In this document: positions 1 through 6,819 of the stretch, in pieces
Layout of the letters: each line of letters begins with the position of its first letter
Position numbering within the stretch: position 1 is the first letter of the stretch
Assembly: GCA_937124525.1 (NCBI GenBank)
Contig: CAKZLA010000229.1
Location: 1-6,819 of the forward strand
Source of the DNA: an uncultured Desulfobacterium sp.
Lineage (GTDB): Bacteria; Desulfobacterota; Desulfobacteria; Desulfobacterales; Desulfobacteraceae
Direction of reading: 5' to 3'
DNA length: 6,819 nucleotides
Made by a program: the position numbers and the translations under genes
Notes under the pieces: model-generated
Seen by the model: only the letters and a program-made list of their open reading frames with translations
Database searches by the model: none
Told to the model about the DNA's origin: nothing

Positions 1-51
1 GGTCACTTAGAAATGTCCTTGTTTTTGAAAGAAAAGCAACATTTTTGTCCA
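1..51. mobile_element. Probable end of an IS21-type insertion sequence
   Basis: ArgS similarity stops exactly where a different sequence begins. Read on the minus strand from 51 it opens with TGGACAAAAATGTTGC and, after about 30 bases, repeats the theme as AGGACATTTCTAAGTGACC. IS21-family elements start with TG and carry several short GGACATTT-like repeats inside each end, which is what is seen here. Only one end is in the window, so transposase genes, the second end and a target duplication cannot be checked. The family assignment is from motif memory and is tentative; the sequence break itself is clear. Confidence 0.5.
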
Positions 52-1147
52 TTAAAATCACATCAAATTGATCACTGGATCTGCCCGAGGCGTCAATGGA
101 GGCATTAATGCGGTTGATGTATCCATGGTGATCTGCCCCCCACACATCAATGACCCTGTCAAAGCCCCTGTCAAATTTTTCCATGTGATAGGCAATGTCC
201 GAGGCAAAGTAGGTGGTAAGACCATTCTGACGCACCACCACCCGATCTTTTTCATCGCCAAAGGATTCCGTATTAAACCACATGGCGCCATCCTTTTCGT
301 AGATGACATCTTTTTTCCGGAACATCTCAATGACGGCCTGGACCCGTCCTGAATCATAGAGACTCTGCTCACTGAACCATTGATCAAAGGAGACACCAAA
401 AGCTGCCAGATCATCCTGGATGCCTTTGAGTATCTTGTCCGCAGCATATCGGGCGCAGATCTGAACCCCTTCTGCCTCTTCTTTTTCCCCAAGGTCTTTG
501 CCCATGAGATCCAGAATTTCCGCTGCAATTTCCTGGATATATTCACCCTGGTAGCAGTCATCCGGAAAATCAATTTCCCGGCCCAGGGCCTCACCCAGGC
601 GAAGCCACACAGAACGCCCCAGGGTTCTGATCTGTCTGCCGGAATCATTGATGTAATATTCCTTTTGCACATCATATCCGGCAAAGGAAAGAATATTGCC
701 CACGGCATCCCCCACGGCGGCACCACGACCATGCCCCACATGGAGGGGCCCTGTGGGGTTGGCACTGACAAACTCCACCTGAACCTTTTTACCCTGCCCC
801 ATTTTAAGAGCACCAAAGTCATGATCTTTTTCATGCACCGTTGCAATAACAGGATGCCAGGAGGCGGGGGTTAAAAAAAAATTAATAAATCCGGGGCCTG
901 CAATCTCACATTTTTCAATGATCCCATGGCTGTCATCCAGGTTATCCACCAAGGCTTGGGCAATTTTTCGGGGGGCCATTTTCTGCACCGACGCTGACAC
1001 CATGGCAACATTGGAGGAAAAATCACCATGGGTGTCATGCCGTGGCACCTCAATTTCCATCTCAGAAAGGACATCTGATGTTAAGAGCCCTTTTTCAAAG
1101 GCCTGCCGGGCAGCACCCAGCAGAATATTTTTTATTTTTTTCTTCAT
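1..1147 (-). CDS. argS: Arginine--tRNA ligase, 3' part replaced by foreign sequence (partial)
   Basis: Class I aminoacyl-tRNA synthetase that charges tRNA-Arg in the cytoplasm. From ATG 1147 the frame starts [17 protein letters not shown]. It has the ArgS N-terminal additional domain (about residues 1-115), then [19 protein letters not shown], which carries the HIGH signature as HVGH (residues 136-139). YYINDSGRQ and [12 protein letters not shown] (about 335-346) follow; all are ArgS hallmarks. Recognisable ArgS ends at residue 365 (VIL, codon 53-55). The frame stays open to the edge but codes unrelated sequence ([14 protein letters not shown]). ArgS is normally about 550-580 residues, so the KMSKS loop and the anticodon-binding domain are absent. 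An in-frame ATG at 1165 would overlap the upstream gene; 1147 fits the usual ArgS start, 8 bases after that gene's stop, suggesting translational coupling. Identity is certain; whether the break is a real insertion or an assembly junction is not. Confidence 0.93.
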
Positions 1148-1154
1148 GAATTCA

Positions 1155-1619
1155 TCAATTCTCATGCTCGGAGTTATTATCAGGTTGAAATTTTGGGGTG
1201 TCATCATCCCCATCAATATCTTTTATGTCATCTTCTGTTATGTCTTCAGTTTCGTCCTGGAGCAAGTTTTCAAGCTCATCCACGTCTGCTTCATCCACCT
1301 CTTCGGGCTCCTCTTGCTCCTGGGGAAATGCCTCAACATCCTCATAATCCACCACAAGTTTGTCTCCCCCACCCCTTTTAAGGAAATCTCCCAGACTTTC
1401 AAAAAGTTTTACACTGAGATCCTGGGGGGGGAAAAGATTTTTTCGGCGTAAAATTTCAATAAAAAACTCCTGCCCCTCTGCCAGCGCATTTTTCATCTCA
1501 CCATAGGGATACTGCTCCTTATGAACGATTAAAAAGGCACCTGGATCAGCCTCTCCGGCCTCCTGAATGGTGATGATTTCTTTTTTTTCATCAATAATGA
1601 ATGTAAATTTCTGTTTCAT
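1155..1619 (-). CDS. Conserved hypothetical acidic protein upstream of argS (154 aa)
   Basis: No function recognised. Residues 1-95 look like a small folded domain (start [20 protein letters not shown], then [21 protein letters not shown]). Residues about 98-154 are a very acidic, probably disordered tail rich in Glu and Asp (for example [15 protein letters not shown]). There is no signal peptide, membrane segment or cysteine motif, so it is probably cytoplasmic. The start is well supported: GGGAG lies 7 bases before ATG 1619. Its TGA (1155-1157) falls just before the argS start, so the two genes are probably one operon. The coding strand has a C8 run in codons 63-66 (1424-1431), which is a slippage risk, but the frame is intact. 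A link to translation is only suggested by position. Confidence 0.72.
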
Positions 1620-1656
1620 TTTATCTCCCTGGTTATTAACCCAACTTTCTTAATTG

Positions 1657-1777
1657 CAGCAATTCTAATTTTGGAGCAGCATACGTTTCAAACCAAGGAC
1701 ACGATCGTTCCCATCAATGTGATTCCATTGAATTGCACATCAAAGGACTCGGTTAAAAGCCACCATTAGAATTGCTG
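1657..1777. repeat. 121-bp inverted-repeat element (possible MITE)
   Basis: The ends form a perfect 13-bp inverted repeat: CAGCAATTCTAAT at 1657-1669 and ATTAGAATTGCTG at 1765-1777. It extends to 16 of 18 matches (1657-1674 with 1760-1777). The 85 bases between have no coding potential. The size and terminal repeats suit a miniature inverted-repeat transposable element, but I see no target-site duplication, so an RNA stem in the leader of the argS operon is an alternative. Confidence 0.55.
1662..1691 (-). promoter_or_regulatory. Possible promoter of the 154-aa protein/argS operon (proximal)
   Basis: On the minus strand TTGAAA (1691-1686) is followed after 18 bases by TAGAAT (1667-1662), which would start RNA near 1655 and give a leader of about 35 nt. 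The -10 lies inside one arm of the inverted repeat, so the element may supply the promoter. This is a consensus match only. Confidence 0.3.
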
Positions 1778-1844
1778 TATAAACTACCATAATATTGATA
1801 AAGCTGCAAAAAATCGGCAATTAGTCTATTACAACAAACCTTCT

Positions 1845-1872
1845 AATATAGCGGAACTTCATTCCCTGTCAA
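1845..1872 (-). promoter_or_regulatory. Possible promoter of the 154-aa protein/argS operon (distal)
   Basis: On the minus strand a perfect TTGACA (1872-1867) is followed after 16 bases by TATATT (1850-1845). If used, the leader would be about 220 nt and would contain the whole 121-bp inverted repeat. Consensus match only; it competes with the proximal candidate. Confidence 0.35.
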
Positions 1873-1929
1873 CAATTCAATACGCTTTTCCCGGAGGAGT
1901 CAACAAAACGAAAAAAAATAAATTGGTTG

Positions 1930-1958
1930 TTGACCTGCCCAAAACAACATGATATACA
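1930..1958 (+). promoter_or_regulatory. Sigma70-type promoter of the tRNA-Ser genes
   Basis: TTGACC (1930-1935), a 17-base spacer and TATACA (1953-1958) lie 15 bases before the first tRNA. This predicts a start near 1965 and a very short 5' leader, as expected for a stable-RNA operon. Confidence 0.7.
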
Positions 1959-1973
1959 CCTTCAGATCTGTTG

Positions 1974-2061
1974 GGAGGAGTGGCCGAGCGGCTGAAGGCG
2001 GCGGTCTTGAAAACCGTTAAGTGTCAAAGCTTCGTGGGTTCGAATCCTACCTCCTCCGCCA
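1974..2061 (+). tRNA. tRNA-Ser(UGA)
   Basis: Class II tRNA. The acceptor arm GGAGGAG (1974-1980) pairs with CTCCTCC (2051-2057), followed by discriminator G and an encoded CCA (2059-2061). The D region has TGGCCGAGCGG and the T arm has GGTTCGAATCC. The anticodon loop CTTGAAA carries TGA at 2008-2010, reading UCN serine codons. The long variable arm (about 2018-2034) is typical of tRNA-Ser. It is followed 53 bases later by a second tRNA-Ser with no terminator between them, so both are probably in one transcript. Confidence 0.97.
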
Positions 2062-2114
2062 TCAGAAAAAAAGAATCGTTAAGATAACTTTTTAAGTGCA
2101 TGATCAGAAAATAC

Positions 2115-2206
2115 GGAGAAATGGCCGAGTGGCTGAAGGCGCTCGCCTGCTAAGCGAGTATGGGGATAAAACTCCATCGAGAGTTCGAATCTCTCTTTCT
2201 CCGCCA
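2115..2206 (+). tRNA. tRNA-Ser(GCU)
   Basis: Class II tRNA. The acceptor arm GGAGAAA (2115-2121) pairs with TTTCTCC (2196-2202), then G and an encoded CCA (2204-2206). The anticodon stem CTCGC/GCGAG closes loop CTGCTAA with anticodon GCT at 2149-2151, reading AGU and AGC. The variable arm is long (about 2159-2178). It shares the promoter of tRNA-Ser(UGA) and is followed directly by a strong terminator. Confidence 0.97.
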
Positions 2207-2220
2207 TTTATAAGCGTTTC

Positions 2221-2256
2221 AAGGGTTGATACCATTCATGGTGTCAGCCCTTTTTT
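2221..2256 (+). terminator. Rho-independent terminator of the tRNA-Ser operon
   Basis: AAGGGTTGATACC (2221-2233) pairs over 13 positions, two of them G-U, with GGTGTCAGCCCTT (2240-2252) around the 6-base loop ATTCAT, and a run of six T follows. It starts 14 bases after the CCA of the second tRNA. Confidence 0.88.
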
Positions 2257-2265
2257 CGTTTGTTG

Positions 2266-2289
2266 GTGTCAAAAATAGTGTCAAAAATA
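2266..2289 (+). repeat. Perfect tandem 12-bp direct repeat behind the tRNA genes
   Basis: GTGTCAAAAATA occurs twice back to back (2266-2277 and 2278-2289). The core GGTGTCA also occurs at 2240-2246 in the terminator stem. Short tandem sites next to a tRNA 3' end can be arm-type integrase sites of a departed element, but no integrase gene or copy of the tRNA end is visible here. Confidence 0.6.
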
Positions 2290-2314
2290 TTTTAAACCCT
2301 ATTACACCACAGAC

Positions 2315-2365
2315 AAAAAAATCCGGTTGACTCAAGTAAAAACATTGAATCAGACGGATTTTTTT
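2315..2365. terminator. Strong bidirectional hairpin, probable terminator
   Basis: AAAAAAATCCG (2315-2325) pairs perfectly with CGGATTTTTTT (2355-2365). Inner bases TTGACTCAA and TTGAATCAG extend the stem imperfectly around an A-rich loop. With A7 before and T7 after the GC core it can end transcription in either direction. It would stop leftward transcripts from hicB before the tRNA genes, and any rightward readthrough. Confidence 0.65.
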
Positions 2366-2406
2366 ATATCTGGTGGGTCCCAATGGGGTATGTTTCATCC
2401 AAGACA

Positions 2407-2556
2407 CAATTATCGGGCGCATTCCCATTTTCCCGGTTGGAGATTCAACTATTTGATTTATCAAGATATTTTGTTTTATATCAATGGAGTGCTGGCTTAA
2501 TGAAATCAATGGGTTATATGATAAGGGCGGGAAAATGGGAATACGCCCCAATTATC
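2407..2556. mobile_element. MITE-like element with 21-bp TIRs and 8-bp target duplication
   Basis: The element is 2415-2548 (134 bp). Its left end (2415-2435, GGGCGCATTCCCATTTTCCC plus G) and right end (2528-2548) are inverted copies matching at 20 of 21 bases; the one difference is C versus T at position 6. Directly outside both ends is the same octamer CAATTATC (2407-2414 and 2549-2556). Terminal inverted repeats flanked by a perfect 8-bp duplication are the signature of DDE-type transposition. The 92-bp interior is AT-rich and non-coding, so movement would depend on a transposase elsewhere. An 8-bp duplication and GGG ends are compatible with IS1595, ISL3 or IS256-type parents, but I cannot assign one. 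Confidence 0.85.
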
Positions 2557-2581
2557 AGAGATATTGTCACGCCTCACAACT

Positions 2582-2935
2582 TTATTCCGCATGGCGTTGT
2601 TTCCCCTGGACAACTTCCCCCAACAGCTCAGCAACACATTGATTCAGGCTTTTGCCTTCGGATGCCGCCTTTACAGCTATTTCGGCGTGAAGTTCCGATG
2701 GAACCCTCAAATTAAATTTTCCAGAATACTTTTTATAAGGCTGTATTCCCTCTTCACGGCACACGTCAAGAAAGACACCAAGGGATTTTTTAGCCTCTTT
2801 TTTCAGTTCATTTATGGTGGTTGCGTAAAAATCCGCACCGCCACTCAAACCGATGAATTTACCCCGGAACATATCAAGTTCCGGATCATATTTGATAATG
2901 GCCTTATGCCCGTCTATCTCCAAAATATTCATCAT
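2582..2935 (-). CDS. hicB: HicB-family antitoxin (type II toxin-antitoxin), orphaned
   Basis: 117-residue antitoxin that in intact loci binds and blocks the HicA mRNA interferase and represses its own operon. The N-terminal part has the HicB fold pattern (IDGHKAIIKYDPELDMFRGKF, then GLSGGADFYATTINELKKEAKKSL, about 7-52). DVCREEGIQPYKKYSGKFN leads into a C-terminal ribbon-helix-helix-like segment, LRVPSELHAEIAVKAASEGKSLNQCVAELL (about 76-105). I chose ATG 2935 because it overlaps the stop of the upstream hicA remnant (ATGA), the usual arrangement; upstream in-frame residues look like a readthrough of hicA in another frame. The gene is intact, but its toxin partner is reduced to 28 codons and the original promoter is gone, so it may be unexpressed or a free-standing repressor. 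Confidence 0.85.
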   Translation of the reverse strand: MMNILEIDGHKAIIKYDPELDMFRGKFIGLSGGADFYATTINELKKEAKKSLGVFLDVCREEGIQPYKKYSGKFNLRVPSELHAEIAVKAASEGKSLNQCVAELLGEVVQGKQRHAE

Positions 2936-3018
2936 GGTTTCACCCCATTCCTTTCCAACCATTTCCTGACACTTACAAGCGCTCCCTTGTCTGTATCCGG
3001 TGAAGGATGTGGTCTGTT
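2932..3018 (-). pseudogene. hicA: 3' remnant of hicA toxin gene
   Basis: In the frame one base off from hicB, the minus strand from 3018 to the TGA at 2934-2932 encodes 28 residues. They include RPHPSPDTDKG and SVRKWLERNGVKP, matching the C-terminal end of HicA toxins of the HRPHP class (about 80-100 residues in full). A stop (TAA, 3021-3019) lies immediately upstream. The first two thirds of the gene, including the start, are missing and not found elsewhere in the window. Its stop overlaps the hicB start by 4 bases, preserving the ancestral operon junction. The break point faces the IS4 remnant, which suggests that the insertion or a later deletion removed the rest. Confidence 0.8.
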
Positions 3019-3105
3019 TTAGTACCAAGTCAACACAAAAATATCAAAACAGGCCCCCGTCTTTAATTTGCCCTACCCGATTCCCAGAGTTCCCTCAGCC
3101 TAACT

Positions 3106-3126
3106 CCAGGGGGCGTTCCCCCCTGG
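3106..3126. repeat. GC-rich hairpin before the transposase remnant
   Basis: CCAGGGGG (3106-3113) pairs with CCCCCTGG (3119-3126) around a 5-base loop. There is no T run behind it, so it is a structured element rather than a clear terminator. It lies between the hicA remnant and the IS4 transposase, in DNA that is probably the left part of the insertion sequence. Confidence 0.4.
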
Positions 3127-3199
3127 CCAACACACCCCTTTCGTCTGCTGTTGTGTGCTTTTTGCCTCTGACTTGGCTGTGGCTGCCTTACAATAAATT

Positions 3200-4060
3200 T
3201 TGCTCAATGTCCCTGTGCTCGCCTCAAGGGTGTATCGGCCATTGAAAATGACTTTTGAGGATCAGCTCAATGCTTTATTGTTCTATCACCTTCAGGAGAA
3301 TGAGTCTGCAAGGGAACTTGTTCAGTGCATGAAAGAAGATGATTTTGCAAAAAACAACATAGCGCCCCATGGTGGTATCAGTCTCAGCAGTTTTTGTGAA
3401 GCCATTAATGATCGAGGCCTCGAACAGCTTCAGTATGTCTTTGAGGAACTTTGTAAAAAAGCCCACAAGGTTCTGCCAGCCCAATATTCAGATCTTGGTG
3501 ATCTTGTTTCTATTGACGGATCACTGATCAATACGGCTCTTACGCCGAATCAAAATCAAAACCACGCAAACCATTATCAAACAGAACAGCGTACCGGAGG
3601 ACAGTCACATTTTCTATGACGCAAAAGTCCTCCTTGGTACTCCGGGGGTGAATCAATCAAAAACCCCAGTTCGGGTCGTTGGATATAAAATGCAAATTCA
3701 ACGCTTTACGTGGCAACCGATCGCCATGACCTGACTGCTGAAGAAGTGGCCAAAGTCTACAAACTCAGATGGGACATTGAATCATTTTTTAAGTGGTGGA
3801 AAAAACGCCTTAAAGTATATCATTTGATCGCCCGCAGTGAGTATGGCGTGATGGTACAAATTCTTGGAGGGTTGATTTCATACCTGCTTATGACCATATA
3901 CTGCCGTGACAACTTCAATGAAAAAGCTTCTATCAAAAGAATCTGCCAACTTAGAAATGATATACAAAATGAACTTCGGCACACTTGCAGACCTGAAACA
4001 TTAGATAATCACGTTTTAAAAAATCCCAAAAAAAAGAAGATGAAGCCCGCAACAACCTAA
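3200..4060 (+). pseudogene. IS4-family transposase, internally deleted and frameshifted
   Basis: Remnant of a DDE transposase. The first part (to about 3540) contains MTFEDQLNALLFYHLQENES and reaches the motif SIDGSLI, holding the first catalytic Asp. It then jumps directly to RIKIKTTQTIIKQNS and IFYDAKVLLGTPGVNQSKTP, in another frame. Compared with the family, about 95 codons are missing, including the second catalytic Asp block (MDRGY). Another frameshift near 3700 separates VVGYKM from YVATDRHDLTAEEV. The last part is intact and has the IS4 signature Y-x2-R-x3-E-x6-K (YKLRWDIESFFKWWK). It ends with KKKKMKPATT at 4060. No good start or ribosome site is seen; 3200 is a TTG, and the true N-terminus may lie upstream. 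The element cannot transpose by itself. Terminal repeats were not identified. Confidence 0.85.
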
Positions 4061-4155
4061 CCGGACACCACTGAATCAAAACAAAATATCAGCATGATTT
4101 TTTGATGTCTAAGTTTTTGGTATTAATAAATTCAATAGGTTATGAAAAAATGAGA

Positions 4156-4255
4156 TAAGTTCTCAATAACTCGGGATAAGAAAGCCTGGTTACCCTTTAA
4201 ACGTCGGGTGCTATTCAAAAGGACTCCCTGAATTCCCGAACTTATTGAGAACTTA
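4156..4255. repeat. 100-bp inverted-repeat element, possible MITE or joined IS ends
   Basis: TAAGTTCTCAATAA (4156-4169) is matched exactly by its inverse TTATTGAGAACTTA (4242-4255). The similarity continues inward after a one-base offset (CTCGGGA against TTCGGGAA reversed). The interior has no coding potential. I see no target duplication at the edges. It could be a degraded miniature element or two ends of one insertion sequence after internal deletion; the neighbouring IS4 remnant is a possible parent, but this is unproven. Confidence 0.55.
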
Positions 4256-4311
4256 CACAAATAGCACGGAAATGCTGCTTCAAATCGGGTCAGTAAATTA
4301 ATTTCAGATTC

Positions 4312-4325
4312 ACCGGGGCCCCGGT
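4312..4325. repeat. 14-bp perfect palindrome
   Basis: ACCGGGGCCCCGGT reads the same on both strands. It lies about 38 bases before the -35 of the hicAB promoter candidate, in an otherwise AT-rich region, so an operator for a dimeric regulator is possible but unsupported. Confidence 0.4.
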
Positions 4326-4362
4326 CGCCTGGTGGATACTGCCCGGCTCTTTGCCACGATTC

Positions 4363-4391
4363 TTGACTTATAAACTCACCGTGTGTATTCT
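4363..4391 (+). promoter_or_regulatory. Candidate promoter of the second hicAB pair
   Basis: TTGACT (4363-4368), a 17-base spacer and TATTCT (4386-4391) lie just before hicA. The predicted start near 4398 leaves almost no leader before ATG 4401, and no Shine-Dalgarno sequence is visible, so a leaderless start is possible. Confidence 0.5.
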
Positions 4392-4400
4392 TTAAAAACA

Positions 4401-4563
4401 ATGAACAGCAAATCAATCATCAAACGGTTAAAGAAAGATGGGTCCAGCACGAGTTCAAAAACAAGGATGGTAAAATTGTGGTGGTGGCTCACCCTATAAA
4501 AAGGATATACCCATTGGCACATTAAGAAATATTTTCAGGCTGGCTGGCCGGGAATGGAGATAA
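4401..4563 (+). pseudogene. hicA: hicA toxin gene broken by a deletion and a 2-base insertion
   Basis: HicA is a small mRNA interferase with a double-stranded-RNA-binding-like fold. The start MNSKSIIKRLKKDG is typical. After the Gly (4442) about 25 bases that should encode the W...GSH segment are missing, and the protein resumes one frame over as HEFKNKDGKIVVVAHP. Near 4495-4500 the text CCTATAAAAAGG has two extra bases relative to the expected HPKKDIP codons. This shifts the frame again to IPIGTLRNIFRLAGREWR and the TAA at 4561-4563. A continuous reading from 4401 gives only a short nonsense product. The segment around the catalytic His is damaged, so the toxin must be inactive. The stop is one base before hicB, showing the original operon. 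Identity rests on three family-like blocks in the right order and spacing. Confidence 0.85.
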
Positions 4564-4564
4564 A

Positions 4565-4958
4565 ATGAAATACCCGGTTATAGTCCACAAAGAAAGCAAC
4601 TCAGAATTTGGCGTAACAATCCCGGATATCCCCGGCTGTTTTACATGCGGAAAAACGCTTGATGAGGCTTTGAAAAACCTTCAGGATGCTGTTGAATGTT
4701 ATTATGAAGGCGAAGGTGTTTGTGCCCCTCCCAAAGCCTCCAACATTGAAACATTGATGGACAATCAGGATTTTTTCACAGATGGTGGGTTCTGGGTGCT
4801 GGCTGATATTGATTTCCTTTCCAAAAAAAAACATTCGTGTCAGCATCACCATGCCGGAATATACGCTGATCATGATTGACAGGGCTGTCAAGGACCATGG
4901 CCTTTCCAGGTCTGCTTTTTTAATGAAGGCGGTTGAACGCATGGCCATGCACAATTAA
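4565..4958 (+). pseudogene. hicB: HicB-like antitoxin gene with a frameshift at an A9 run
   Basis: Antitoxin of the HicA remnant just upstream. GGAGA lies 4 bases before ATG 4565, and the hicA stop is one base away, implying translational coupling. The N-terminal domain MKYPVIVHKESNSEFGVTIP, then DIPGCFTCGKTLDEALKNLQ (about 1-50), is the HicB-like fold. The plain frame ends at 4879 as a 104-residue protein with an unrelated tail (HSCQHHHAGIYADHD). If the run of nine A at 4823-4831 were eight, the frame would continue as NIRVSITMPEYTLIMIDRAV, then KDHGLSRSAFLMKAVERMA, to TAA 4956-4958. That is the expected 130 residues with the C-terminal ribbon-helix-helix DNA-binding domain. The unshifted product would keep the toxin-binding domain but lose DNA binding. 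A sequencing error, a real mutation or RNA-polymerase slippage could each explain it. Confidence 0.85.
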
Positions 4959-5438: not shown

Positions 5439-5470
5439 AAATGGGCGGAAAGATAAAAATCCGCCCATTT
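5439..5470. terminator. Bidirectional terminator between the 90-aa gene and htrA
   Basis: AAATGGGCGGA (5439-5449) pairs perfectly with TCCGCCCATTT (5460-5470) around a 10-base A-rich loop. It lies between two convergent stops (5403 and 5478). On the minus strand the stem runs into a clear T run, so it ends htrA transcripts well; on the plus strand the T run is short (TTT). Confidence 0.8.
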
Positions 5471-5477
5471 GAAATTC

Positions 5478-6819
5478 TCAGCGGGTTAATCTCACGGCAA
5501 TAAAGCTGACATTGCCCCGCCGGAAGAGAAGTTGAAATTGCTCCCCTTTGGCAACGGTCTCCATGGCCTTAAGATACTGTTTTTCCGTTTCAACAGGCCT
5601 GTGGTTGACCTCTTTTAACAGATCTCCCTCCCGGATACCGGACTGATCGGCCTTACTGCCGGGTTCAATATTCACAACCACAATACCCCGGGCACCAGGA
5701 GCATATCCATAGGGCCGCGCCGCATCATCACCCACAGCGGCAAACTTCATTCCCAGTTCATCAAAGCCATTTTGTGAATGAGCAAGTTGCTGATCATCAC
5801 TTCGTCGGGTAAGGGTCACCGTGGTCCGGCGTTTTTGCCCCTCCCGGAGGTAGGCGACCGTCACCTTTTCACCCACGCCAAACCCGGCAATGGTACTGGA
5901 AAGATCCCGGCTGGATTTAATTTCCACATCATTGACCTTTACGATGATATCACCGGGTTGAATCCCGCCATCATGGGCCGGATTGTTTTCATATACCTGG
6001 GCCACAAGTGCACCACCGGCAGCCTTTATACCATAATATTCGGCAAGCTCCGGTGTCACATCCTGGATGGCCACGCCCAGCCACCCCCGGGTCACTGATC
6101 CTGAATCCTGCAACTGCTTTACAATCCCCCGGGCAAGGTCCGATGGAATGGCAAAGCCAATGCCTTGGCCTGATTTTATAATGGCCGTGTTGATACCGAT
6201 AACCTCTCCTTCAAGATTGAGCAAGGGCCCACCACTGTTTCCCGGATTGATGGAGGCATCTGTCTGGATAAAATCGTCATAGGGGCCAGAGCCCAAAATG
6301 CGTCCTTTTGCACTGACAATGCCTGCTGTGACGGTCTGCTCAAGGCCAAAGGGACTGCCGATGGCCACCACCCAGGTGCCCACCTTGAGATCATCAGAAC
6401 TGCCAAGTTTCAAGGGCACCAGGCCTTTGGCATCTATCTTGATAAGCGCCAGATCCGTTTTGGGATCCCCCCCCACCACCGTGGCTGGATATTCCTTGTC
6501 ATTATACATTTTTACGAGGATTTCATCTGCACCATCCACCACATGGTAATTGGTGACAATATAGCCTTTCCGGTCAATGATAAAACCTGATCCCAGACTG
6601 TTTTGCTTGTAATCCCGGGAAGGTCCCCGCCGATTAAAAGGGCTGGTGAACTGACGGAAAAAATCCCTGTCATCAAAGGGTTGACCAAAGAAATGGTTAA
6701 ACACCCGCCCCCCCCCCGGCCTTGTGTCCCCGCCCCCCCTCATCCCCCCGCCGCGCCCCTCCCCGTCAGCCACTTCATTGACGCCTTCTCTCGACATCCG
6801 TACCTTTGTCACACAGCCC
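5478..6819 (-). CDS. HtrA/DegP-family periplasmic serine protease (5' end outside window)
   Basis: ATP-independent protease/chaperone for misfolded envelope proteins. The frame is open to the right edge, so the signal peptide and first residues are missing; a GTG at 6812 is used only for numbering. It has the full trypsin-like triad: His90 in [11 protein letters not shown], Asp120 in [11 protein letters not shown] and Ser193 in [12 protein letters not shown]1 spans about 243-336 (carboxylate loop RGWLGV) and PDZ2 about 350-442, as in DegP/DegQ. Before the protease domain is an unusual Gly-rich linker (about 17-36, [13 protein letters not shown], then TRPGGG). Its coding strand has G runs of 6, 7 and 10. 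Next comes [15 protein letters not shown], the typical segment before the first strand. It ends at 5478, 8 bases from a hairpin terminator. The two PDZ domains favour DegP/DegQ over DegS; I do not choose a symbol because the N-terminus is not visible. Confidence 0.95.

Follow-up and report, generated by a model that had tools for sequence, protein, structure and literature searches.

A gene-less 134-bp MITE-like element behind a tRNA-Ser pair shares its ends with insertion sequences of sulfate-reducing bacteria

Behind two tRNA-Ser genes in an uncultured Desulfobacterium sp. lies a short inverted repeat enclosed by identical octamers, raising the question of whether it is a mobile element and, if so, which kind of enzyme moved it. 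Analysing the surrounding window (the whole stretch of DNA under study, 6,819 nucleotides) and comparing it with related genomes, we conclude, at a probability of roughly 93%, that the feature is a gene-less 134-bp MITE from a family found in sulfate-reducing bacteria, with ends that match those of full-length, transposase-encoding insertion sequences. The class to which it belongs, MITE, is already known, and the element is ordinary mobile DNA.

Anatomy and setting of the element

From left to right, the element comprises a target-site duplication, CAATTATC (2407–2414), of the same length as the duplications of its relatives; a 21-bp terminal inverted repeat on the plus strand (2415–2435), with exactly the sequence found at both ends of L014, L041, L044 and L174, full-length elements described below; a non-coding interior of 92 nucleotides (2436–2527); a 21-bp terminal inverted repeat on the minus strand (2528–2548), with one mismatch to the left repeat (GGGCGT for GGGCGC); and an exact second copy of CAATTATC (2549–2556). 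The arms pair at 20 of 21 positions (95% complementary), and the motif AAC-N4-TGATTT can be read by eye 11–12 bases in from both ends, its two copies oppositely oriented. The preliminary description of this DNA had reported these near-perfect repeats, the octamers and the 92-bp non-coding interior; all were borne out, and the repeats within their octamers lie far beyond what shuffled DNA yields. When the window was shuffled 100 times with dinucleotides preserved, arms within identical octamers 60–500 bases apart reached at most 14 of 21 pairs. By the definition given in a passage of PMC10969869, a MITE measures under 500 bp and has inverted ends of ~4–30 bp, a range that includes this 134-bp element with its 21-bp ends. 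As in other MITEs, the flanking duplication is present on both sides and a transposase gene is absent: the four listed frames that overlap the element (52–110 aa) each run over one of its ends. Judged from the exact octamer and the 20/21 ends, a recent insertion is plausible.

The tRNA-Ser genes lie upstream at 1974–2061 and 2115–2206, the left octamer standing 200 bases past the second of them, and a minus-strand HicB-family gene (frame ending at 2582) stops 25 bases short of the right octamer. The repeat might instead be a structured RNA or terminator serving the hicB-like gene or the tRNA pair, its octamers arising by chance, and the element does fold well beyond shuffles (z −5.6 for the plus strand as DNA, −7.9 for the minus strand as RNA). 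Its transcript would form a hairpin, which implies no role. Good folding is expected of any long inverted repeat, regardless of function; moreover, a search of Rfam found no family within the element at E values up to 1, no T-run follows the stem on either strand by eye, and the relatives sit at other, unrelated places with duplications of their own. We give this explanation next to no credence.

Other features of the window deserve mention in their own right. A second inverted repeat, perhaps a terminator, has 31-nt arms at 2305–2335 and 2345–2375 that are 81% complementary, the right one containing a T-run, and just before this repeat GTGTCAAAAATA occurs twice in tandem (2266–2289). At 4565–4958 a HicB-like antitoxin gene extends over two overlapping frames (PF15919 positions 1–85 and 85–122), its last part alone aligning in Desulfocicer vacuolatum; PADLOC, run on two hicB-like proteins, found nothing. 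The C-rich end of the window (6700–6819), within which the D. vacuolatum alignment ends at 6717, is perhaps low-quality sequence.

Short relatives and their target duplications

The exact end pattern occurs in 61 stretches of genome_contigs, 57 of them with Desulfo- names and one titled Deltaproteobacteria, with Schlesneria, Ca. Parabeggiatoa and Magnetococcales contributing one each; by arithmetic, chance would supply about 0.5 matches in 257 billion bases of even composition. Among 86 genomes of one family, 12 contain the pattern, with a maximum of 101 occurrences (G027), and none contains a reversed control pattern. No exact element end was found in viral contigs, and plasmid and phage collections returned only pieces at E 5 or worse among the matches listed.

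Further copies in relatives, which the preliminary description had proposed seeking, include four 132-bp elements in Desulfonema magnum (NZ_CP061800.1; L017, L051, L026 and L031), similar to the window's element over their whole length and each bearing its own 8-bp duplication. By eye, the inverted AAC-N4-TGATTT motif is also present in L017 and L051, with AAG at the left end in L026 and L031. These four, like L022 (131 bp) from Desulfococcaceae bacterium HSG8, share the ends of the window's element, lie within 3 bases of its length and carry a similar, diverged interior in the same orientation. When the element and its octamers were searched by blastn against eight genomes, one D. magnum copy aligned at 72% across query positions 5–150 (E 3.4e-13); identity to the element was 72% for L017, L051 and L022 and 69% for L031, and L026 gave only partial matches among those listed. 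Seven elements of 129–134 bp can be aligned along their full length. Compared without the ends, the interior of the window's element scores above 1000 shuffles by 5.3 (against L017), 3.1 (L026), 5.3 (L022) and 3.7 (L057) standard deviations, the best shuffle beating the real score for L026 and none doing so for the other three. A profile of the seven aligned elements, searched under strict filters with eight candidates scored per genome, finds matches in 6 of 389 Desulfobacterales genomes (E 1e-4). It misses a decayed D. vacuolatum copy (G003:C63:178834-179153; L065, L074) that blastn and local alignment find in two halves, and which shares window-specific stretches next to both ends but differs in its worn ends, ~190 extra bases inside and a different genomic location.

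Several copies at different places, as a MITE should have, are thus found in related genomes, and they bear on how the short form arose. Elements bounded by these ends range up to 5,299 bp in length, and the window's copy might be the shrunken leftover of a longer one, internally deleted in place rather than moved as a MITE. Its interior, however, is like that of 132-bp elements elsewhere that have duplications of their own, and the short form itself therefore moves; the four D. magnum copies largely refute shrinkage in place, which we regard as very improbable.

In HSG8, the 217–220-bp elements L025, L037 and L045 combine a MITE-like part with an end resembling the insertion sequences' right end, and a worn inner end separates the two. 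Outside Desulfobacterota, the element at L018 2195–2314 in Ca. Parabeggiatoa measures 120 bp, has the same ends and is flanked by a 9-bp duplication.

An exact flanking repeat of at least 8 bp is present in 13 of 21 paired-end loci drawn from the 61 stretches; the eight lacking an 8-bp duplication are L014, L022, L029, L035, L037 (cut by a contig end), L044, L047 and L057. Fourteen further copies from G031 and G027 add 12 exact 8-bp repeats, one 9-bp repeat (L176) and one locus with none (L182). G034 contributes five stretches, three with a single end and two with paired ends, of which the 3,198-bp element has an 8-bp repeat and the 5,299-bp element has none. By eye, the longest frames of these two G034 elements (L160, 1185–4382; L161, 1449–6747) resemble other transposases, and the elements may therefore hold nested insertions. 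No shared target sequence was seen by eye in the flanks examined; for part of the ISKra4 group, insertion upstream of promoters has been reported (PMC3942029).

Full-length insertion sequences with the same ends

Full insertion sequences carrying the same 21–23-bp ends, another proposed object of search, exist in related Desulfobacterota and encode an ISKra4-related transposase; together with the short copies, they uphold the MITE-like nature first suggested for the element. An autonomous partner with these ends is thus found in relatives only, in three genomes: L014 and L174 (G031) have open frames, and L041 and L044 (D. vacuolatum) have broken ones. L014, a 1,545-bp element, has a 491-aa open frame that matches NF033572 (transpos_ISKra4) at E 5.7e-52 and 177.2 bits and matches no Pfam family, and the 394-aa frame of the 1,521-bp G031 element matches the same model at E 3.6e-43 and 148.2 bits. 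We call these transposases ISKra4-related because both score below the curated cut-off of 205 bits. Both D. vacuolatum full-length copies have stops in frame, one also having ~97 extra bases.

G031 contains at least 17 end pairs 1,521 bp apart, at least four pairs 319 bp apart and at least two unpaired ends; insertion sequences and MITEs with the same ends therefore coexist in one genome. Four of its 319-bp elements share with the 1,521-bp element only the 23–24-bp ends and an 18-bp inner repeat. The interior of the window's element is common to other MITEs and to none of the full insertion sequences found, and its direct parent is therefore missing from this set. One more element, L032 (1,459 bp), has these ends and an 8-bp repeat but no ISKra4-like frame; since its ends resemble those of the 339-bp elements L002 and L056, we read it as a candidate MITE with another element inserted.

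From these comparisons we infer that the enzyme that moved the window's copy was an ISKra4-related transposase; a duplication of 8 or 9 bp, as such mobilisation would leave, is present. In the proposed mechanism, the transposase, supplied in trans, would bind the element's ends, excise the element and insert it at CAATTATC behind the tRNA-Ser pair, and cuts staggered by 8 bp would yield the target duplication.

Another enzyme could have acted, such as that of the IS4 remnant in the window, an IS4-type transposase in two separated pieces (3200–4060, the middle of the profile unmatched) that starts about 650 bases from the element. IS4 duplications have other lengths. No GGGCGCATTCCCATTTTCCCG-type end like the element's lies near this remnant, as the preliminary description had also noted: the only other stretch of the window within 6 mismatches of the element end, at 5446–5466, has 6. 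By contrast, exactly these ends bound full-length elements in three genomes, and the transposases that those elements encode, though broken in D. vacuolatum, are ISKra4-related; we consider mobilisation by another enzyme extremely improbable.

D. magnum has ISKra4 elements of its own, with 17 matches to NF033572, eight of them above the cut-off. In 12 stretches covering 14 of the 17 matches, no pair of element-type ends was found within 6 mismatches, each stretch having at most one end-like sequence (5 or 6 mismatches); the three matches outside these stretches score the same as the examined 515-aa copies, two of which proved on comparison to have in common a repeat whose ends are quite different. 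We set these elements aside as the mobiliser because, within the examined stretches, such ends do not flank them. The D. magnum record is titled a complete genome, and its short copies keep exact duplications and the inverted motif inside each end. The 132–134-bp MITEs might be an old lineage persisting after the loss of its parent, mobilised perhaps by ISKra4-type transposases with different ends; we think this unlikely, and if it were true, end recognition would be looser than assumed for the ISKra4 family.

Insertion sites and place among known elements

An allele with a single octamer at the empty site had been anticipated for the window's copy; we looked for it and did not find it, either in D. 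vacuolatum, the closest of the 86 genomes searched (86% over window 51–2277), or in a selection of 389 Desulfobacterales genomes from a larger group (two candidates scored in each), where no match spans the 47 bases immediately right of the element. D. vacuolatum has different DNA from behind the tRNA-Ser pair up to window position 4813, and the element's flanks themselves are unaligned: window 2278–4812 and D. vacuolatum L097 3503–4456 do not align, and both sides align at 84–87%. By this alignment, the DNA that follows the tRNA-Ser pair is a variable site adjoining tRNA genes. Empty sites were found for a 319-bp cousin in G034 (L126), which is flanked by CTCAGTGA. Element-free sequence aligns straight through its joint at four places in G033 and one in G007, and the octamer occurs once at each, as CTCAGTGA at the four G033 sites and, with a changed base, as CTCAATGA in G007. 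Read at the sequence level, these sites show insertion with an 8-bp duplication; they are related repeat copies, their orthology unproven.

A survey of Mutator-like prokaryotic transposases (PMC3942029) gives ends of 18–39 bp and duplications of 8 or 9 bp, and the ISKra4 family (p-MULT 4 in that scheme) is like the window's element in end length and 8–9-bp duplications. The family model NF033572 is matched by the transposases of the element's full-length relatives; the element differs in having no gene, and the relatives' transposases fall under the curated cut-off (177.2 and 148.2 against 205 bits). In general anatomy the element is like other bacterial MITEs, including, by description only, Nezha of cyanobacteria (parts of PMC10969869 and PMC3733652). 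The term MITE is absent from the main text of PMC3942029; our literature search found no on-point paper joining ISKra4 with MITEs or non-autonomous elements, and for Desulfobacter and miniature inverted repeats integron work was the only match.

What was an anonymous hairpin can now be assigned to a defined mobile-DNA family for which an enzyme type is named and a search pattern is available. The insertion sequence, the MITEs and the empty sites in related species form a natural set for studying how bacterial Mutator-like transposases move short elements.
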